Shown: positions 17,201-30,288, counted from the stretch's first letter. The stretch: DNA of 33,474 nt from Cellulosilyticum sp. (GCA_017421915.1 JAFOHG010000077.1:1-33474), one strand, 5' to 3'. The notes: generated by a model not told the origin, from the sequence alone. Made by a program: numbers and translations.

Positions 17201-17391
17201 ATTCTAAAAAAGGAAAAAATTTTCTATATAAATAAATTAAAAATAGTATAAAAAGATTAAGCATAGAAAACATGGACATTTTATAAGGGAAGTGTTAATA
17301 TTTTCATAGGATGGGAATAATATTTTTATCCTTATGAAGTCATGTAAGGATGGAAAATGATTTCAGAGAAAGAGATGAGAGGAAATTACAT

Positions 17392-18369
17392 ATGTTGTAT
17401 TCAATTTTTAACAACCTAAAACCAGAATGGCTAACATTTTTGGGGATTTTATTTGCTTTTTGTGCGACTTGTTTTGCACTTGCTAAGTGGAGTAAGTATT
17501 TACCAAAAGATTTAGGAAGAGATTTTGCGCATAATGGAAAACTTTCTGCAGGAAAACCTAGAGGAGCAGGTTTTGTTTTTATTATTATATTTGTTATAGC
17601 ATCAGTATTGTTCGGGGTATATAAGAATGAATTTTTGATTTATGCTATTTTAGTTGCAGCAGCTATGATGACAGGCTTTTTGGATGATTGTTCACGAATG
17701 CCTTGGGGAGAATATAAAAAAGGGTTATTAGACTTTATTATTGCGGTGATGATTGCTATTACATTTTTAAACTTCAATTCAAGTACAGTTGAGATTGTAT
17801 CATTAGGAATGAACTTAGCACTTCATCCATTCGTATTTGCTGTACTCACAGTCATTTTAGTTTGGGCATCTATTAATGTTACAAACTGTACAGATGGGGT
17901 AGATGGATTATCTGCTACGTTAACGATTATTACATTAGGTACCATTTATGGTATTAATCAAATTAAAGGTATTAATGCAGATTTTAATTATATTATTTTA
18001 ATCTTTATCGTTTGTTTATTAGGCTATTTATGGTTTAATGCCACACCAAGTAAGTTGATGATGGGAGATGCAGGTTCACGTGCAATGGGGCTTTTTATTA
18101 GTATTGCTATTTTGAAGACTAATAGTCCATTTTTATATATTCCAGTAGCACTTGTATTAATTTTAGATGGAGGTTTAGGATTAGTGAAAGTTGCACTACT
18201 AAGATTTTGTAAAATTAGAATCTTAACAAATGTGCGTACACCTCTTCATGACCAAGTAAGAAAGGTAATGGGATGGTCTAATACACAGGCTGTTTTCCGT
18301 TTTGCAATTATTCAGGCAATGATTGGTTTGGCAGTATTATATTTAGTTAGTATGTATTATCCATTTTAG
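17392..18369 (+). CDS. MraY/WecA-family phospho-glycosyl transferase, atypical
   Basis: This 325-residue polytopic membrane protein of the family PF00953 transfers a sugar-phosphate from a UDP-sugar to undecaprenyl phosphate. Conserved loops are present: KPRGAG near 50-55, GFLDD at 95-99, NCTDGVDGL at 165-173 and MGDAGS at 224-229. The C-terminal TPLHD at 283-287 occupies the place where canonical MraY has a HHH cluster, so two histidines appear changed. It resembles MraY most but could be a paralogue with a special role, for example in spore cortex, or a teichoic-type transferase. I chose the ATG at 17392, preceded by GAGAGGA, over an in-frame ATG at 17350. Confidence 0.82.
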   Translation: MLYSIFNNLKPEWLTFLGILFAFCATCFALAKWSKYLPKDLGRDFAHNGKLSAGKPRGAGFVFIIIFVIASVLFGVYKNEFLIYAILVAAAMMTGFLDDCSRMPWGEYKKGLLDFIIAVMIAITFLNFNSSTVEIVSLGMNLALHPFVFAVLTVILVWASINVTNCTDGVDGLSATLTIITLGTIYGINQIKGINADFNYIILIFIVCLLGYLWFNATPSKLMMGDAGSRAMGLFISIAILKTNSPFLYIPVALVLILDGGLGLVKVALLRFCKIRILTNVRTPLHDQVRKVMGWSNTQAVFRFAIIQAMIGLAVLYLVSMYYPF

Positions 18370-19691: not shown

Positions 19692-20858
19692 ATGAGAGAA
19701 AAAGAAATAAAAGAGCGAAAGGCTATAAAAAAGCCTTATTTCATAGCTTTATGGCTAATGATAATAGCAGTAGTTGGCTGTCAAAAAACAGAACCATCTA
19801 ATACATCATCTAATACACCAAGTGTTCATCAGACAGCTGAACCCATAGAAGAAAAGCAAGTACGTATTCATTTTATTGATACAGGGAATAGTGATGCTAT
19901 TTTAATTGAGCAAGGTGAACATGCAGCCTTAATTGATGGTGGGGATAATAATGATGAAGTACTAGTAGTGGAGTATATTAAAAAATTAGGCATTACTTCA
20001 TTAGATTATATCTTTGCAACACATCCAGATGCAGATCATATTGGGGGATTAGATGCGGTGATTTCACAAATTCCAGTAGGTCAAGTATTTGTAGGTAATG
20101 GTAAAGCAACAACTAAAACCTATACGGATTTTATTGAAGCTATTATGAGAAAGGGCTTATCACCTAGCGTTCCTTTATTAGGGAAGACTTTTAACTTAGG
20201 TGATGCTATATTAAAAATTGTCAGTGTAGCTCATGAAAAGGATGTTAATAATTGTTCATTAGTCATCTTATATACTTATAAAGATTATAAGGTCTTATTG
20301 ATGGGGGATGCAGACCAAAGTATTGAGCAGAGTATTGATGTAAATGAGATAGGTGATGTGGATCTCATTAAAGTAGGACATCATGGCTCTAAAACATCTT
20401 CTCATTATGATTTTATTAAAGCGGTATCACCAGAACATGCAGTGATTACTTGTGGGGAAGGGAATAAATATGGTCATCCAAATCAAGAAACATTGGATAC
20501 TTTAAATAAGTTAAACATTGCTACTTATCGTACAGACAAAATGGGAGATATTATATTTGATATCAATAGTCAAGGCATTCAGTTATATACATCAAATCCT
20601 TTAAAAGAAGATGGTGTGATAACACAAAATGAACAAAAGAAAAATGAAATCCTTAATGAAGATAAATTTCTTTCAGAAAATGAAGCGGTAGTAGAAACGT
20701 TTCAGGAGATAGGAGATTCATCTCATACAGTAGTTTATTTTACAAAAGACGGTAAGCGTTATCATAAAGAGAAAAATTGTTCAAATATGAAAGATCCTAT
20801 AGTAGGAACAATAGATGAAGTTGGAGAACGCACACCATGTAAAAAGTGTTATAATTAA
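19692..20858 (+). CDS. ComEC-type metallo-beta-lactamase lipoprotein with C-terminal Cys motif
   Basis: This 388-residue protein begins with a membrane anchor at about 16-29 ending in VVGC, a lipobox with lipidated C30. A Ser/Thr/Asn-rich linker follows to about 53. The hydrolase domain matches the ComEC C-terminal type: FIDTGNSDAILI near 61-72 (usually VGQGDS-like), HPDADHIGG at 111-119, LMGDAD near 203-208 and KVGHHGSKTSS near 231-241. The C-terminal 45 residues hold a separate small domain, VVYFTKDGKRYH ... C ... PCKKC (C383, C386), probably a metal site. It is anchored outside the membrane, so it may degrade extracellular nucleic acid or another phosphoester; substrate unproven. GAAGGAG precedes the start. 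Confidence 0.9.
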   Translation: MREKEIKERKAIKKPYFIALWLMIIAVVGCQKTEPSNTSSNTPSVHQTAEPIEEKQVRIHFIDTGNSDAILIEQGEHAALIDGGDNNDEVLVVEYIKKLGITSLDYIFATHPDADHIGGLDAVISQIPVGQVFVGNGKATTKTYTDFIEAIMRKGLSPSVPLLGKTFNLGDAILKIVSVAHEKDVNNCSLVILYTYKDYKVLLMGDADQSIEQSIDVNEIGDVDLIKVGHHGSKTSSHYDFIKAVSPEHAVITCGEGNKYGHPNQETLDTLNKLNIATYRTDKMGDIIFDINSQGIQLYTSNPLKEDGVITQNEQKKNEILNEDKFLSENEAVVETFQEIGDSSHTVVYFTKDGKRYHKEKNCSNMKDPIVGTIDEVGERTPCKKCYN

Positions 20859-21624: not shown

Positions 21625-22323
21625 ATGAAAAGGATAATGAAATGGGTGATTTTATTAGGGTGCTGTCTGGCATTATTTAATATCATAATTATGGCAAGTC
21701 AAAAGATAGAAAATGAACCAAAGGTACTTTATTTAACTTTTGATGATGGGCCTTCAGAATATACAGAAGCTCTGTTAGATTTATTAGATACCCATCATAT
21801 GAAGGCGACTTTCTTTATGTTAGAGCCTGAAATGCAAAGAAATCCAGAAGTTGTCAAACGTATGGTAGCAGAAGGCCATGCAGTAGGAGTACATGGCGTA
21901 TCACATGAAAAAAATACTTTTTACTGTGGTGTATTAGGACCCGTTAAGGAAATGGAACAAGCAAATGATACATTACAATCCATTATAGGGCAAAGAACGT
22001 TCTTAGCAAGAACACCATACGGTAGTTCACCCTATCTTACTAAAAAGCAACTTGATGCACTCAGTAGTAAACAGTATATTTTATGGGATTGGAATATAGA
22101 TTCTAGAGATTGGAGCTATAGAAATCCGCAAAAAACTTTCCAGCATACTATTCAAAATATGAGAAGCATGAAAAAAGAGCCCAAGGTTATTTTGTTTCAT
22201 GATATTAAAGGGGCGGTAGAAACGATGACGCTTTTTATGGATTGGATGGAAAAAAATCATTATACTTCACAAGCAATTACTGTAGATTTAGAACCAGTCA
22301 AATTATGGCGTAAGCCAGATTAG
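21625..22323 (+). CDS. Membrane-anchored polysaccharide deacetylase (NodB/PgdA family)
   Basis: This 232-residue protein has one N-terminal hydrophobic segment (residues about 6-24, signal peptide or anchor) and then a NodB-type carbohydrate esterase 4 domain. All five motifs are seen: TFDDGP at 38-43 with D40/D41, H90-GVS-H94 metal ligands, RTPYG at 129-133, DWNIDSRDW near 155-163 and LFHD at 190-193. It should deacetylate cell wall amino sugars outside the membrane. The upstream sigma-G-like promoter suggests forespore expression and a PdaA-like role in cortex peptidoglycan, but this is inference. The ribosome binding site CAGGTGA is moderate. Confidence 0.9.
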   Translation: MKRIMKWVILLGCCLALFNIIIMASQKIENEPKVLYLTFDDGPSEYTEALLDLLDTHHMKATFFMLEPEMQRNPEVVKRMVAEGHAVGVHGVSHEKNTFYCGVLGPVKEMEQANDTLQSIIGQRTFLARTPYGSSPYLTKKQLDALSSKQYILWDWNIDSRDWSYRNPQKTFQHTIQNMRSMKKEPKVILFHDIKGAVETMTLFMDWMEKNHYTSQAITVDLEPVKLWRKPD

Positions 22324-22624: not shown

Positions 22625-22653
22625 TTGTAGATTTACTAAGAATACGATAAAAT
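22625..22653 (+). promoter_or_regulatory. Candidate promoter of the first PBP gene
   Basis: TTGTAG (22625-22630), a 17-bp spacer and TAAAAT (22648-22653) lie about 48 bases before the start codon. Each box deviates from consensus. Confidence 0.45.
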
Positions 22654-22700: not shown

Positions 22701-25700
22701 ATGAAACCTCAAAAAATTAATGAAAAAAAGTTTAAGATATTTTCCGATAGATTAATGATGATATGCGTAGTAATTACATGCATGTTTGTAGTTATTATGT
22801 ATCAATTTTATAAAATTCAAATTATAGAACATGATGCATATGATGAAGAATTACGTGCAACAGTTCAAAAGGAGGTAGAAATTCCTGCTATACGAGGCTT
22901 AATTTATGATCGCTATGGTAAACCATTAGCTACTAATAAGGCTGTTTATGTTTTAAAATATGATCCACAAGTTACATTGAAGTCTGGAGAACTAGATAAA
23001 ATTTTGCTTAAGGTAGCCAACTTACTAAGAGCTAATAATGATACATACATTGATAATGTTCCGATTTCTAATACAGTGCCATTTGTGTTTACAGAAGATA
23101 CACAAAGTATAAAAAGATTTATTACCAATTATGTACCATATAATGATAATGAACATAAAGAAGTCATTTATGGCTATACAGCACCAGAGCTTATGGCTTA
23201 TTTGCGTAGTGAAGATGTATTTGATATAGACGAATCTTTTAGTGATGAGGAAGCACGCAAAATTATTGCTATGCGCTTAGAGATTAGACAGACAACCTAT
23301 CAAAAATATAAAAAAGTAACTATTGCACAAAATGTCTCTATGAAATCATTAGCGGGTATTGAAGAAAATAGAAATGAATATGCTAGCATTACAGCAGAAG
23401 TAGAGTCTCAACGCTATTATCCTCACAAAGAAGCCTTTGGTAATATATTAGGTTATACAAGGATGATTACAGAAGGACAGTATAAGACACTTGCAGATGA
23501 GGGCTATGAGAAAGATGATATTGTAGGACAAGTGGGTGTAGAAAGTGAGATGGAATCTCAGCTTCGTGGTGAAAAGGGAAGTAAGATTATTCAAGTGGAT
23601 AATGTGGGACGAACTGTTTTTACATTAGAAACTCAGGAAGCATCAGCAGGTAATGATGTTTATTTAACTTTAGATGCAGATTTGCAAATAGCAACTTATA
23701 ATGCGTTAGAAAAGCGCTTAAGTGAAGGGATTATTGCACGTTTAAAAGGTGCTTCTAAAACAACCCCTTTAACAGGTAGAGAGATATTAGTTTCAATGGC
23801 TAAAAATAATCAATTAGATTTTAAAATGATGAGTGAGGCATCAGAAGAAAGTGTACAAAGACAACTGTATAATAAAGTTTTAGCTTCTTATGAAAAAGAA
23901 GTGAAGAGATTAGCAGAAGTAGAAAAAAATGCTGTAGAAGATGAAAAAACAGCATTAACTTTGAAAACACATTTTGCAAACATGTTAGAGAGTGAAAATA
24001 CTTTAATTACAGATCGTGAACTCCTACTAGCTTTTGCAGAGCAAGGCTCTTTGAAATTAAGTAGTGATCAAGTACAAAATATTAAAGTAGGTAATTATAA
24101 TTTAACGTCTTTACTTATTGGACAATTAGAAAGTGGAGGTCTTAAACCAGACCAAACGGATATTATGCCATGTAGTGGGACAGCAGTTGTAGTAGACCCT
24201 AATACAGGACAAACACTGGCATTAGTGAGTTATCCATCTTATGATAATAATGAGTTTATACAAAACTTTAATACTATTTATACAAAACTGCATGATGGTG
24301 TGGATACTCGTAATATAGAAATTAATCGTGCCCTAAAGACAGCAAAGGCACCAGGATCAACATTTAAAATGATTACTGGTATTGCAGGAATTGAGGAAGG
24401 TGTCGTTAATACAGACACATTAATTTATGATACAGGTGAATTTACAAAAGCTGGACGTCCATATCCAAAATGTTGGATATTTACCAATACAGGTAGTGGA
24501 CATGGTAATGAAAATATTGAAGGGGCACTAGAAGTTTCATGTAACTATTATTTCTATGAAGTTGCTTATCGATTAGGTCTTAAATATGGTGCACCTTATG
24601 GTGGAATTGATATATTAACAAAATATGTTGAGATGTTCGGACTTAGTGAAAAGACGGGTATTGAATTAGAAGAGTCAGAGCCAAATGTATCAAATCCAAC
24701 AACAGTTGTGAATACACAAGCAGCTAGTGCACTTAAAAGATTAAGGGATTTAAAAGATCCAACTAAAACAGAATTATTTGAGTCTATTGTAGATAATTTT
24801 GAATTAGGAAAAGCCAACTATATTAATTCAACAGATGAAAAAATAGATGATTTAACTAAATCTGCTATTAATAGAGCTGTGGCTACAGATTTAACAGTAG
24901 CAATGAGTGATGAGTTTGAAAACATTTTTGATAAGATGTTAGCAGACTATAGCGAAGAATTAGTAAATGGTGTAGCGCCTTATGCAGATGCTATTACTGA
25001 AAAAGTCATTCATGGTGATAATAATTTAAGTTTAAAATATCGTACAAAACAAGCATTAGCAGAGGTGTTTAATCAATTAGTACAGCCAGGTACACGAAAA
25101 ACGATTGGTAAAGTCATTGAAAAGATGTCAGATGGTTTATTAGAACGTACCTTCTTAGAAGCTTATCAAGCTGCCATTAAAGCAAATGAACAAGATCCAA
25201 AAATGGCAGATGTATGTGCAGAGCTAAGAGTGCGTATTAATCAAATGGAAAAAGGAACATTTGATTATGAAACAATTATGACAGATAAGATTATTAATGG
25301 AATCATTAGTGTTTATTTAAATAATCGTTTTAAAGACGTAGAGATGGAATGGACTGTGGCAGATAATGTTCGTACAGCCATTGGACAAGGAGATAATGCC
25401 TTTACCCCTGTTCAAATGGCACGTTATACAGCAGGACTTGCTAATGGAAAAACGGTCTATAATTTAACAATTATTAATGGTATTAAAGACCATAAAGGAA
25501 CTGGGCAGTATATAGCAAAGGAACCAACTATTTATAGAGAGATTAATATTAGTGAACCAACTATAGATGCGATTCATTCAGGAATGCACCTGGTTGCAAA
25601 AGGGGCATCAGGAACAGCACGAAGTTCATTTAATCAGTTTCCAATAGAAGTAGCTGCAAAAACGGGAACAGCTCAAGAAAGTAGCTGGGAGAATTCTTGG

Positions 25701-25874
25701 TTTGTAGGATTTGCACCTTATAATAAACCAGAAATCTGTGTTGTAACCTCTATGTATGGTGCAGATGGGTTAGGAAGCTATAATACTCAAATTGCAAAGG
25801 ATATTTTTGAACAATATTTCAAGGTAAATGAAACATTAGATAAGACTTCATTAACCAATCAATTTGTTGAATAA
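22701..25874 (+). CDS. Class B penicillin-binding protein, PBP2-type, enlarged (paralogue A)
   Basis: This 1,057-residue transpeptidase is much larger than the usual 600-750 of PBP2/SpoVD types. One N-terminal membrane helix (about 17-37) is followed by the dimerisation region with RGLIYDRYGKPL near 72-83. Transpeptidase motifs are S553-TFK, S613-C-N and K987-TG, all intact. Extra sequence lies in two places: about 130 residues (about 340-488) between VYLTLDADLQ and the core VVVDPNTGQTLALVSYPSYD, and about 190 residues (about 660-885) between GIELEE and AIGQGD. It cross-links peptidoglycan outside the membrane. The strong AAGGAGGA site (22675-22682) is 18 bases from the ATG, unusually far; a weaker AGAAGA is nearer. 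Confidence 0.92.
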   Translation: MKPQKINEKKFKIFSDRLMMICVVITCMFVVIMYQFYKIQIIEHDAYDEELRATVQKEVEIPAIRGLIYDRYGKPLATNKAVYVLKYDPQVTLKSGELDKILLKVANLLRANNDTYIDNVPISNTVPFVFTEDTQSIKRFITNYVPYNDNEHKEVIYGYTAPELMAYLRSEDVFDIDESFSDEEARKIIAMRLEIRQTTYQKYKKVTIAQNVSMKSLAGIEENRNEYASITAEVESQRYYPHKEAFGNILGYTRMITEGQYKTLADEGYEKDDIVGQVGVESEMESQLRGEKGSKIIQVDNVGRTVFTLETQEASAGNDVYLTLDADLQIATYNALEKRLSEGIIARLKGASKTTPLTGREILVSMAKNNQLDFKMMSEASEESVQRQLYNKVLASYEKEVKRLAEVEKNAVEDEKTALTLKTHFANMLESENTLITDRELLLAFAEQGSLKLSSDQVQNIKVGNYNLTSLLIGQLESGGLKPDQTDIMPCSGTAVVVDPNTGQTLALVSYPSYDNNEFIQNFNTIYTKLHDGVDTRNIEINRALKTAKAPGSTFKMITGIAGIEEGVVNTDTLIYDTGEFTKAGRPYPKCWIFTNTGSGHGNENIEGALEVSCNYYFYEVAYRLGLKYGAPYGGIDILTKYVEMFGLSEKTGIELEESEPNVSNPTTVVNTQAASALKRLRDLKDPTKTELFESIVDNFELGKANYINSTDEKIDDLTKSAINRAVATDLTVAMSDEFENIFDKMLADYSEELVNGVAPYADAITEKVIHGDNNLSLKYRTKQALAEVFNQLVQPGTRKTIGKVIEKMSDGLLERTFLEAYQAAIKANEQDPKMADVCAELRVRINQMEKGTFDYETIMTDKIINGIISVYLNNRFKDVEMEWTVADNVRTAIGQGDNAFTPVQMARYTAGLANGKTVYNLTIINGIKDHKGTGQYIAKEPTIYREINISEPTIDAIHSGMHLVAKGASGTARSSFNQFPIEVAAKTGTAQESSWENSWFVGFAPYNKPEICVVTSMYGADGLGSYNTQIAKDIFEQYFKVNETLDKTSLTNQFVE

Positions 25875-25893
25875 AAAGAAGCATGGGTACTAT

Positions 25894-25948
25894 AAATTGA
25901 CCCCAATAAGTTAGATTTAAAAATTTAACTTATTGGGGTCAATTTTTT
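25894..25948 (+). terminator. Terminator between the PBP genes (long palindrome)
   Basis: Arms 25894-25913 and 25926-25945 are perfectly complementary over 20 bp and pair further inward. A T-run ends the right arm. The arm sequence TGACCCCAATAAGTTA also resembles ends of some IS3-family elements. Confidence 0.82.
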
Positions 25949-25955
25949 GTATTAA

Positions 25956-25984
25956 TTGTTTTTAAAAAACAGAAATGATATAAT
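25956..25984 (+). promoter_or_regulatory. Promoter of the second PBP gene
   Basis: TTGTTT (25956-25961), a 17-bp spacer and TATAAT (25979-25984) with a preceding TGA (extended -10) make a strong vegetative promoter 34 bases before the start. The second PBP can therefore be expressed independently of the first. Confidence 0.72.
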
Positions 25985-26018
25985 TATCTGACAATATAAA
26001 AAGGGAGTTGTATGTTAA

Positions 26019-29000
26019 ATGTATTTAAGGTGTAGGGAAAAATTAAAATTTTTGTTAGATAGAGTCTTTTTCATGGCAGTGATGATAATATTAGCGTTTA
26101 TAGTAGTTGTTTTTCAATTTTATAATATACAGATTATAGAACATGATACCTATGTGGCAGCAGTTAGTGCAAATGTACAACGTGAAGTAGAGATTGAGGC
26201 ATCTAGAGGGCTTATTTATGATCGTTATGGAAAGCCATTAGTTCAAAATAAAACGATTAATGTGATTCAATTTGACCCTGAAATTAGATTACCAAAAGAT
26301 GTGGATTCAAATCAGATTTTAGTGAATGTAGCGCATTTATTAAAAGAAGAAGGATTTAATTATATTGATAATATACCCATTTCAAAAGCACCTCCTTTTA
26401 GATATACAGGAGATGAAACTGAGATACAACAATTTATTACCAATTATGTACCATATGATGACAATAAGCATAAATTAGAGCTTTATAAACTATCTGCACC
26501 AGAGCTTATAGACTATCTATGTAGTGATAAAGTTTATGATTTGGCAGAAACATTTAGTGAAATAGAAAAAAGAGAAATTCTAGCAATGCGTATTCAAATT
26601 AGTCAAACTCAATACCAAAAATATAAAAAAGTAACCCTTGCAGAAGATGTTAATATGAAAGTCGTGGCCGCAATTAAAGAACATCAAGAAGCTTATCCAG
26701 CTATTACAGCAGAGGTAGCCACACAACGTTATTATACTTATGGTAAAGCACTAGGAAATGTTATAGGTTATATGCGAAAGATTACAGAAAATCAATATGA
26801 AACTCTAAAAGAAAAGGGATATGAAAAAGATGATATTATTGGACAAGTGGGGGTAGAAGGAGAATTTGAGGAGACTTTAAGAGGAATTGATGGCAAGCAA
26901 TTGATAGAAGTAGATAATGTGGGACGAACCGTAAGAAAAATTCCTTTAGAATCAAAGAATGTAGTCGTTGGTAATGATGTATACCTAACCATTGATGCAG
27001 ATCTTCAACAACAAGTATACAATGCCTTAGAAAGAAGATTAAGTGAAGGCATTATAGAGCGTTTGAAAGGTGCTTACAAGACGCAACCTTTAACAGCTAG
27101 AGAAGTGATTGTATCTATGGCAAAAAATAATCAGATTGATCTTGAGTGTATGGAAGAAGCTGAGGCATCAGAGTATGAAAAAGCATTATATCAAAAAGTG
27201 AGTACTTCTTATGAAAAAGAGTTAGCTAGATTAGAGGCTACCCAGCGTCATTTACCAGATGAAGAAAAAATGAATCTGACACTTAAAAGACATTTTGCCA
27301 ATATGTTAGAGGCGGAGCAAAGTCCAATTACAGATTCAGAACTTTTACTGGTTTTTGGAATACAAGGAACATGGCCTTTCACCAAGCAAGAAATGGAACG
27401 TATTGCAACAGGGAATTATTATTTAACGGACCTGGTGATTGAAGCATTAGAAAGTGGAAAAATTAAACCAGATCAGATGGATATTACACCATGTAGTGGT
27501 TCTGCAGTTGTTGTAGATAGTAATAATGGACAAACATTAGCATTGGTTAGTTACCCTTCGTATGATAGTAATGAGTTTACAAGAAATTTTAATAAGATAT
27601 TTAATAAACTCAATGATGGAGTAGATAAACGTAGTATTGAGTTTAATAGGGCACTTAAAACGGTTAAAGCACCAGGCTCTACTTTAAAAATGATAACAGG
27701 TATTGCAGGGTTGGAAGAAGGCGTTGTCAGTCCAAATGAATCAATTTATGATGTAGGTCAATTTACTAAGGCAGGAGATTCTTTAGAATGTTGGATTTAT
27801 ACGAATACAGGACATGGCCATGGAGATGTAGATATGGTACGTGGTTTGGAGGTTTCTTGTAATTATTACTTTAATGAAGTGGCATATCGTTTGGGTGAGA
27901 AATTTGGAGCACCTTATGGTGGCATAAAAGTATTAAGTTCCTATGCACAGCTTTTTGGATTAGGTGAAAAATCTGGTATAGAGTTAGAAGAAGCAGAACC
28001 TAATATTTCTAGTCCAACTAATGCAGTTAATACACAGGCAGCCAGATTCTTAAATATACTTAAGAATATGAATAGTGAGAGAAAGAGGAGTTGGTATCAA
28101 GATTTAGAAGAATATGCTATCGGAGAAGAGGGATTTTATCCATTAGGGGATAGTGAGGCTACTAGCTTAGAGGGACAAGTGGATTATTTAAGTGGGCAAT
28201 ACATAAAGAGTCGAATGGATATAGAATTAAGTCTGGTTTTAAGTGAAGAGGATAGTTTAAATAGTATTTTAAATCGATTAGTAGAAGGCTATGTAGAAGC
28301 TTTTGATGGACAAGTGAGTCATTATGCAGATACCTTAACCACAGCCGTTATGGAGGGAGATACAGATTTAAGTTTAAAATATCGATTAAAACAAGAACTT
28401 GGTGTCTTACTAAAAGAGAAAGCATCCAATAAAGCAGATAAAGCTATTCGTAGGCTGCTTGCTTCTATGCCAGAAGGTACCATGGAACAGATTTTCTTAG
28501 AAGGCTATAAAGAAGCATTGCAAACTTATCAAGGTGATGTTGGACAAGAAGAGGTATGTCAAATCTTTAAAGAGCGTATAAATGCGTTAGAGAGGGGAAA
28601 TTTTGCCTGTAAACAAATGATGGTAGATAAAGTATTAGATCGTATCATTAATGCATATTTAGATAGTTATTTTAAAGATATTCAAATGGAGTGGACGGTT
28701 ATGGATAATATTAGTTCAGCTATTGGTCAAGGTCAACATACATTTGCACCTGTTCAAATGGCGCGTTATATAGCTGGTTTAGCTAATGGAAAGACAGTTT
28801 ATAATTTAACCGTTTTAAGTGGCATTTATGATCATAAAAAGACCAATCAATATATACCTCATGAAGCAACTGTTTTTAATACTTTAAGCTTTAAAGAAGG
28901 AACAATTGAAACCATTCGAGAAGGCATGAGAGCCGTTGTAGTAGGGCGTTCGGGAACAGCTAGAACATACTTTGAGGATTTTGATATTGAAATAGCAGCC

Positions 29001-29216
29001 AAAACAGGGACGGCACAGGAAAGTGGATGTGAAAATAGTTGGATTACAACTTTTGCACCTTATGATTATCCGGAAATTGCTGTTGTAAGTTCTATGTATG
29101 GAACAGATGGGTTAGGGAGCTGCACTTACAATTTTGTAAAAGATGTTTATAATATTTACTTTAATTTAAATCAAATGTCAGAAAAAGTTTCTTTAGATAA
29201 TCAATTTATAGAATAG
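26019..29216 (+). CDS. Class B penicillin-binding protein, PBP2-type, enlarged (paralogue B)
   Basis: This 1,065-residue paralogue of the preceding gene is collinear with it throughout, with roughly half of the residues identical by eye. A membrane helix lies at about 15-36, then RGLIYDRYGKPL, and transpeptidase motifs S554-TLK, S613-C-N and K995-TG. Both large insertions are present in the same places, so they predate the duplication. The insertions diverge more (an extra acidic stretch near 685-730) than the catalytic core. It has its own promoter and follows a terminator. The GGGAG site is 11 bases from the ATG; another ATG at 26012 opens only a seven-codon ORF. Confidence 0.92.
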   Translation: MYLRCREKLKFLLDRVFFMAVMIILAFIVVVFQFYNIQIIEHDTYVAAVSANVQREVEIEASRGLIYDRYGKPLVQNKTINVIQFDPEIRLPKDVDSNQILVNVAHLLKEEGFNYIDNIPISKAPPFRYTGDETEIQQFITNYVPYDDNKHKLELYKLSAPELIDYLCSDKVYDLAETFSEIEKREILAMRIQISQTQYQKYKKVTLAEDVNMKVVAAIKEHQEAYPAITAEVATQRYYTYGKALGNVIGYMRKITENQYETLKEKGYEKDDIIGQVGVEGEFEETLRGIDGKQLIEVDNVGRTVRKIPLESKNVVVGNDVYLTIDADLQQQVYNALERRLSEGIIERLKGAYKTQPLTAREVIVSMAKNNQIDLECMEEAEASEYEKALYQKVSTSYEKELARLEATQRHLPDEEKMNLTLKRHFANMLEAEQSPITDSELLLVFGIQGTWPFTKQEMERIATGNYYLTDLVIEALESGKIKPDQMDITPCSGSAVVVDSNNGQTLALVSYPSYDSNEFTRNFNKIFNKLNDGVDKRSIEFNRALKTVKAPGSTLKMITGIAGLEEGVVSPNESIYDVGQFTKAGDSLECWIYTNTGHGHGDVDMVRGLEVSCNYYFNEVAYRLGEKFGAPYGGIKVLSSYAQLFGLGEKSGIELEEAEPNISSPTNAVNTQAARFLNILKNMNSERKRSWYQDLEEYAIGEEGFYPLGDSEATSLEGQVDYLSGQYIKSRMDIELSLVLSEEDSLNSILNRLVEGYVEAFDGQVSHYADTLTTAVMEGDTDLSLKYRLKQELGVLLKEKASNKADKAIRRLLASMPEGTMEQIFLEGYKEALQTYQGDVGQEEVCQIFKERINALERGNFACKQMMVDKVLDRIINAYLDSYFKDIQMEWTVMDNISSAIGQGQHTFAPVQMARYIAGLANGKTVYNLTVLSGIYDHKKTNQYIPHEATVFNTLSFKEGTIETIREGMRAVVVGRSGTARTYFEDFDIEIAAKTGTAQESGCENSWITTFAPYDYPEIAVVSSMYGTDGLGSCTYNFVKDVYNIYFNLNQMSEKVSLDNQFIE

Positions 29217-29313: not shown

Positions 29314-30288
29314 GTGGAGACAAAAAAGATAACAGAAGGCGGTATTTTATCTGCTATGCAAATTGTATTAGGGCTTATGCTGATTCCAACGGGAATAGGC
29401 TATAGTTTTTATATAGAAGTACTCCTTCCTATTACAATGACGTTAACTTATTTAAGATGTGGTAAAAAAGCTGGAATGATTGCAGGGTTAAATACTTTTT
29501 TGATTCTAGGATTTGGATTTGGAAATATAGCAATCGCTATATATGCCTTGCAAGCACTTGTTTTTGGCTTTTTAACAGGTTGTATATTACAAAAGCCTCA
29601 AAGTGTACAAGATGATTTAATGATAGAAAGTATGATAGGCTGTCTCTTTTTATTAATTTTAGATTTATTAACAGCGCAGATTTTAGGACATAGTTTATTA
29701 GACTATGATGGCATTGATGAAATGGTTTTATACATTATGCCAGAAGCAAGTAGTTGGATGATTCAACTCATTTATTATTTAAGTATTGCATCCATTCCTG
29801 TAGCTACTGTATTAATGACTTATATAGGAAGTTTGATACTGGGTTATAGACTTGGTTTTTTATCTGGTTGTGCAAGAGAAAAATATGTTTTTATAAAAAA
29901 TTATAAGTTGCTGATTCCATTTGCTTATCAAGGACAAAAAATGGTAAGGTGGGCAGTATTAGGTTTAATAGGAGATGTGATTTTATGGCCATATGCTACA
30001 TCTGCCTATTTAAAAGCTTGGATTGCCTGTAGTGGTGCTATTTTGCTGTATTTTGTATTAATAGATTTTAGTAAATTAGTGGATCAGTACATTTTAGAAA
30101 AATGGAAAAAACCATTATGGTTACCTATTTTTCATTTGCTCCTTTTATATGCTTTTTTTAAAAATTTTATAGGAACTTGCTGTATAATCATTTTAATAGG
30201 TATCATGATTGATTTTAGAACGCAAATTCGAAGGAAACAATCACAGCAACTTGCTTTATATATGAGGTATTCTTTGCATTCAAAGTAA
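29314..30288 (+). CDS. DUF2232 / YybS-like membrane protein
   Basis: This 324-residue integral membrane protein has about eight hydrophobic helices. The N-terminal region (EGGILSAMQIVLGLMLIP, then MTLTYLRCGKKAGMIAGLNT near 41-60) fits the DUF2232 (YybS) family common in Firmicutes. Family members have a transporter S-component-like architecture, but function is not established. Translation begins at GTG, eight bases after AAGAGGAG. A TATAAT at 29279-29284 may be its -10 box, with a poor -35. The gap to polC is 38 bases without a terminator, so polC may be read from the same transcript. Confidence 0.82.
   Translation: METKKITEGGILSAMQIVLGLMLIPTGIGYSFYIEVLLPITMTLTYLRCGKKAGMIAGLNTFLILGFGFGNIAIAIYALQALVFGFLTGCILQKPQSVQDDLMIESMIGCLFLLILDLLTAQILGHSLLDYDGIDEMVLYIMPEASSWMIQLIYYLSIASIPVATVLMTYIGSLILGYRLGFLSGCAREKYVFIKNYKLLIPFAYQGQKMVRWAVLGLIGDVILWPYATSAYLKAWIACSGAILLYFVLIDFSKLVDQYILEKWKKPLWLPIFHLLLLYAFFKNFIGTCCIIILIGIMIDFRTQIRRKQSQQLALYMRYSLHSK

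Follow-up and report, generated by a model that had tools for sequence, protein, structure and literature searches.

Class B penicillin-binding proteins (PBPs) of the PBP2 type are DD-transpeptidases that cross the membrane once and act together with a SEDS glycosyltransferase. PBP2 is central to cell shape as well as being a beta-lactam target, and in the Lachnospirales its gene almost always lies within the mreBCD operon. We analyzed a stretch of 33,474 nucleotides from Cellulosilyticum sp. (GCA_017421915.1 JAFOHG010000077.1:1-33474), hereafter the window, in which two adjacent genes encode giant proteins of this type, PBP-A and PBP-B. The window corresponds to contig G000:C38 of a draft genome that is 81% complete and that groups with the genus Cellulosilyticum in our genome collection, where it is G000; among named organisms the closest relative is Cellulosilyticum sp. 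SIG270 (L039) at 78% identity. Coordinates given without a locus name are window positions. The pair is a clear case of a core gene that left its operon and duplicated, and the two large insertions of each protein, insert 1 and insert 2, are clade traits and not inventions of the pair.

The best match of the pair, both by sequence against the PDB and by Foldseek, was C. difficile PBP2 (PDB 7rcw, 7rcx, 7rcy; PMC9334274). Like the pair, this protein has a PBP2-type core, is enlarged by helical insertions and has a zinc-ligand tetrad at equivalent residues. Unlike the pair, it lacks inserts 1 and 2, and its own extra segments comprise a cluster of helices within the N-terminal domain and a beta3-beta4 coiled coil after KTG. 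The PBP2 proteins of E. coli and Yersinia (MrdA; 6g9p, 6tix), at about 630 amino acids (aa), share the pedestal and the transpeptidase fold (VIA Z ~44, 2.7-3.0 Å over ~525 residues) and are likewise without either insert. The mreBCD-linked PBP2s of other Lachnospirales (Anaerotignum, Anaerocolumna, Niameybacter) have an orthologous core with insert 1 in all of them, and insert 2 is present in those of Niameybacter and Epulopiscium, as it is in the pair. They differ from the pair in being single copies in the order mreD-PBP2-minC and in lacking insert 2 outside the Cellulosilyticaceae; in the Lachnospiraceae, insert 1 is about 100 aa longer than that of the pair and its profile often matches twice. 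As for the mecR1-mecI-mecA system, a PBP gene adjoining those for BlaR1 and BlaI was found only in relatives (L127 and others) and not in the window. The MecA_N domain of PBP2a is absent from the window proteins, and a search of the window for a BlaI-type operator gave none.

A sequence-only reading of the window had described the two genes as class B PBPs of the PBP2 type with intact SxxK, SCN and KTG motifs and with 1,057 and 1,065 residues. All of this held for both open reading frames. Pfam PBP_dimer and Transpeptidase were matched in each protein, the latter match being broken in two by an insertion, and sequence and predicted helix agree on a single N-terminal membrane helix at residues 17-42. 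Together with the preserved motifs, these features are those expected of class B PBPs. The two proteins are 53% identical in a full-length alignment. The PBP2 model TIGR03423 was the top family for both (411 bits for PBP-A and 395 for PBP-B, the equivalog cut-off being 455), while the SpoVD model TIGR02214, with a cut-off of 688 bits, gave only 165 and 157. MecA_N was not found in either protein by Pfam, which sets them apart from PBP2a/MecA. The best structural fits of the PBP-A model were the PBP2s of several species (VIA Z 42-45). The Zn ligands of C. difficile PBP2 are D515, D528, H538 and C551, the last being the X of SXN, and Asp and Cys are interchangeable at the first two positions (PMC9334274). 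In a phmmer alignment, D577, C591, H601 and C614 of PBP-A match these positions and PBP-B has identical residues, suggesting that both proteins carry a tetrad of the C. difficile type (D/C, D/C, H, and C as the X of SXN).

The surroundings of PBP2 genes in relatives place the pair by descent. In other genera of the Cellulosilyticaceae the standard locus is radC-mreB-mreC-mreD-PBP2-minC-minD-minE-rodA, and mreD and/or minC lay beside PBP2 in 76 of the 80 relatives fetched from named genomes; the four exceptions were L039 of Cellulosilyticum and three loci adjoining BlaI and BlaR1 genes. The pair therefore belongs to the elongasome PBP2 lineage, and both its phylogeny and its synteny point to an origin from an mreBCD-linked transpeptidase. 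The window genome has its mreBCD-minCDE-rodA cluster on a different contig, and PBP2 is missing from it. The gap between mreD and minC is only about 160-190 bp in G000, G002, G003, G004 and G006 (~180 bp in the window genome), so PBP2 is gone from the mre operon in these five genomes. A search of this gap in the five genomes for a PBP2 remnant gave no match, and the idea of a remnant was dropped. In G001, G005 and G007, a diverged PBP2 is still at the mre locus and an intact copy is present at a second locus as well; G001 is a finished chromosome of 4,714,237 bp. The operon copies of these three genomes (L125 9133-12246, L131 8950-12035 and L135 8700-11857, respectively) have one frame lesion each, which falls either at the N-terminus or within the first 200 residues. 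The catalytic motifs persist in the lesioned copies of G001 and G005, and the G001 lesion sits at a T7A7 run, where slippage is possible.

The second-locus PBP2 of Cellulosilyticum adjoins a polysaccharide deacetylase gene. In a tree of the core, the relocated copies form one clade (support 96), the A/B duplication falls at the base of G000, G002, G003, G004 and G006 (support 100), and the B copies form a clade on a long branch (support 100) that is kept over three species. The sole gene at the relocated locus of G004 (L129 9904-13086, minus strand) is an A/B hybrid whose N-terminal part groups with A (96) and whose C-terminal part groups with B (96); it looks as if tandem copies had recombined. 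In G006 a group II intron interrupts the tandem: each copy is at the edge of a contig (the end of L132 and the start of L133), and these contig ends bear the two ends of the intron. Taken together, synteny and phylogeny indicate that the gene left the mreBCD-min-rodA operon, that the operon copy was lost and that the relocated gene was duplicated in tandem. Cellulosilyticum thus offers a series of escape, loss and re-duplication with intermediate states, a natural comparison from which to learn what an elongasome transpeptidase requires.

The insertions had been placed before the transpeptidase core and between SCN and KTG, and the spacing of landmarks across 76 relatives bears this placement out. 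Insert 1 was measured from the end of the pedestal to the start of the transpeptidase domain, and insert 2 from after the SCN helices to before IGQG. The first span is 173 aa in the pair versus about 28 residues between the flanking aligned segments of C. difficile PBP2; it is ~148-173 aa in most families and 256-282 in the Lachnospiraceae and a few others. The second is 236-244 aa in the Cellulosilyticaceae and 15-49 in the other relatives. The core was also found to be more alike between A and B than the insertions are, as had been claimed: identity is 61% in the core, 55% in insert 1 and 29% in insert 2, which is conserved least. The insert 2 profile matched PBP2 in 23 of 24 Cellulosilyticaceae genomes, the remaining genome being 73% complete, and found no credible match in 368 other Lachnospirales genomes. 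Of 391 genomes sampled from the class, 19 were matched by the insert 1 profile, every one of them from the Lachnospirales; among the non-matching genomes listed, which leave aside 352 further ones, none belonged to that order. In several Lachnospiraceae the profile matches twice side by side (for example G151:C29:168473-169270), which suggests that insert 1 is internally duplicated there. By these profile matches, insert 1 is an order-wide helical domain of the Lachnospirales and insert 2 a family-wide one of the Cellulosilyticaceae, so both came to the pair from one ancestor.

Pfam and PDB searches of the two inserts returned no convincing relative, and in the literature searched on Cellulosilyticum PBPs and Epulopiscium peptidoglycan we found nothing describing either. 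To call the insertions novel features shared by the pair is nevertheless misleading: neither is named in Pfam or the PDB, but they are not private to the pair. The sequence-only reading was to be given up if the insertions proved to be a known domain of all Lachnospiraceae PBP2s, with both copies coexpressed and interchangeable; half of this applies, in that insert 1 is common to Lachnospirales PBP2s, while insert 2 is confined to the Cellulosilyticaceae. The structure prediction it had proposed gave a confident AlphaFold2 model of PBP-A (mean predicted local distance difference test score, pLDDT, 86.9; predicted template modelling score 0.78) with both inserts helical and mostly above a pLDDT of 80, and a model of a Lachnospiraceae comparator has the insert 1 helices in similar order plus additional ones. 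The proposed fold search was less informative, because searches with whole models were filled by matches of the PBP core and the insert folds were hardly probed; we make no claim of a new fold. Two domains that are unnamed and predicted to fold well are thus markers, one of an order and the other of a family of anaerobes; the family includes the giant Epulopiscium. Homology between inserts 1 and 2 was considered and dismissed (hhalign probability 2.7%). Insert 2 as a mobile or free-standing domain was also rejected: three weak matches in other families were two DEAD-box helicases and a DUF445-like protein, and an extra match in G013 was an AEDI-repeat reading frame. All four were dismissed as chance, these labels being given from sequence appearance rather than from a family search.

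That each gene has its own promoter, as had been proposed, is supported by a strong terminator between A and B and by promoters conserved in related species (Table 1). Hairpins occur at the equivalent place in G002 and G006, and the consensus upstream of the copies in related species is TTGNNN-17-TA(T/A)AAT. A consensus scan by itself is uninformative, with 50 promoter-like sites versus 45 expected; the evidence is the conservation across species. Because of the terminator and the conserved promoters, A and B look like separate transcription units.

We propose that PBP-A and PBP-B are paralogous elongation PBP2s, relocated and duplicated, with A in a housekeeping and B in an auxiliary role and with the inserts as accessory domains, and we consider this reading probable. 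Both proteins would act as DD-transpeptidases on nascent glycan from a SEDS partner. Since tree and synteny place the pair in the elongation lineage, the likeliest partner is RodA, whose gene lies in the mre-min operon, and MreC would also be expected; rodA and mreBCD are present in the window genome. The substitution rates indicate that both copies are under purifying selection and that B evolves faster. PBP-A would be the housekeeping elongation PBP2 because it evolves more slowly, and PBP-B may be an auxiliary transpeptidase of elongation whose partner contacts or expression have changed. Because the inserts are helical and fast-varying and, in sequence, do not include any of the three motifs, they are more likely docking or scaffold domains than catalytic parts, insert 2 being the fastest-changing.

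Several points weigh against this proposal. The ratios of nonsynonymous to synonymous substitution (dN/dS), 0.13-0.14 among A copies and 0.16-0.20 among B copies, are rough, since dS exceeds 1 and is near saturation. Most of the compared genomes are drafts, and the preference for A over B as the housekeeping copy derives only from rates and phylogeny. Both proteins also miss the TIGR03423 cut-off. The mre-operon orthologues L040 (434 bits) and L101 (438 bits) miss it as well, with L057 (469 bits) above it, so this cut-off cannot separate true PBP2s in the Lachnospirales. By descent the pair is thus assigned to the PBP2 type, though it formally falls short of the equivalog cut-off.

Some relatives carry PBP2 genes outside the mre operon in a different setting. 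In Cellulosilyticum G003, L127 (G003:C222 191-5771, minus strand) has blaI, blaR1 and then a further giant PBP2 with both inserts, whose promoter contains two perfect TTACATATGTAA palindromes 25 bp apart; this PBP2 looks beta-lactam-inducible. BlaI, BlaR1 and PBP2 also occur together in four more Lachnospirales loci, L052 (5646-13552), L068 (6563-13235), L074 (6622-15882) and L137 (G019:C8, 6744-15892), with paired TACANNTGTA sites 22-26 bp apart directly upstream of PBP2. Across the 76 named-genome loci (1.34 Mb), paired TACANNTGTA sites were found only at the three BlaI/BlaR1-linked loci, and the full set of fetched loci held two further pairs, beside other BlaI genes (L163, L177). L052 also carries a MecA_N-bearing PBP, and L137 a class B PBP with PASTA, a lipoprotein-like protein and a beta-lactamase-family protein. 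A partial literature search found no report of BlaR1/BlaI-linked PBP2 in the Lachnospirales. These copies suggest one route to inducible resistance enzymes. A bolder extension would give each copy of the pair its own elongasome partner through insert 2, so that the two elongation transpeptidases would differ in partners or in drug sensitivity, and would see escaped Lachnospirales PBP2s as repeatedly recruited, some of them as beta-lactam-inducible replacements; we regard it as speculative and unlikely.

These BlaR1/BlaI-linked loci are also what would favor PBP-B as a back-up transpeptidase of altered beta-lactam affinity that sustains elongation once PBP-A is acylated, as would the cephalosporin insensitivity of C. 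difficile PBP2 (PMC9334274). However, the scan of the window found no TACANNTGTA site, genes for BlaI and BlaR1 do not adjoin the pair, the sole Penicillinase_R match of the window genome is weak, and the active-site motifs of A and B are nearly identical, which makes such a role quite unlikely. A further alternative is that the copies are interchangeable and kept for dosage, with inserts that are neutral accretions. Such redundancy would fit the retention of all motifs in both copies, the finding of only one gene, the hybrid, in G004, and the single copy of most other Cellulosilyticaceae genera. It is harder to square with the conservation of the long B branch over three species, with the 29% identity of insert 2 and with inserts that are confidently predicted as folded domains and retained throughout the family, and we consider it improbable.

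The sequence-only reading had itself offered a division between growth and sporulation, with one copy in vegetative elongation and the other in spore-wall or engulfment synthesis, and for this we found no positive support. Conserved sigma-A-like promoters precede both copies, that of B with an extended TATAAT -10 (promoters of sporulation sigma factors were not scanned for), and a SpoVD-like protein, at 642 bits to TIGR02214, is encoded on another contig, whereas PBP-A and PBP-B score far lower against that model. A sporulation role thus seems very unlikely, even if C. lentocellum forms endospores (PMC3416734), the copies have diverged under separate promoters, and the dcw-encoded class B PBPs of C. 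difficile are reported to be specialised for sporulation (PMC10693644).

Table 1 Features of the PBP-A/PBP-B locus in window coordinates.
Feature	Position	Strand	Remarks
Polysaccharide (peptidoglycan) deacetylase-like gene	21625..22323	+	Conserved upstream neighbour of relocated PBP2 in Cellulosilyticum
Sigma-A-like promoter of PBP-A, TTGTAG-17-TAAAAT	22625..22653	+	Spacing and -10 kept in G001, G004, G005, G006
PBP-A, class B PBP of PBP2/MrdA type, 1057 aa	22701..25874	+	Relocated copy
Insert 1 of PBP-A, residues ~340-490	23718..24170	+	Helical; Lachnospirales-wide
SxxK of PBP-A (STFK, S553)	24357..24368	+	
Putative Zn tetrad of PBP-A (D577, C591, H601, C614)	24429..24542	+	Matched to C. difficile PBP2 by alignment; C614 takes the X place in SXN
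Insert 2 of PBP-A, residues ~666-882	24696..25346	+	All-helical; Cellulosilyticaceae only
KTG of PBP-A	25659..25667	+	
Intrinsic terminator hairpin between A and B	25896..25943	+	Stem of 20 bp followed by a T run
Sigma-A-like promoter of PBP-B, TTGTTT-17-TATAAT	25956..25984	+	Extended -10; G002 and G006 have similar sites before B
PBP-B, 1065 aa	26019..29216	+	Tandem paralogue of PBP-A
Insert 1 of PBP-B	27039..27491	+	
SxxK of PBP-B (STLK)	27678..27689	+	
Putative Zn tetrad of PBP-B, equivalent residues	27750..27860	+	By alignment with PBP-A
Insert 2 of PBP-B	28014..28688	+	
KTG of PBP-B	29001..29009	+	
DUF2232 membrane protein	29314..30288	+	Downstream neighbour; likewise in G002, G004, G006

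A few other observations were made along the way. A few kb upstream of the pair, the window encodes a MraY/WecA-like glycosyltransferase (17350-18369) and a metallo-beta-lactamase-fold protein (19692-20858) whose resemblance to the C-terminal domain of ComEC and to AHM-type models stays under the cut-off. Two tRNA-Lys (CTT) genes lie close together at 7-80 and 284-356. In L041 (12148-13071), the minC gene of Epulopiscium is apparently interrupted, with about 325 bp between its two matching parts.

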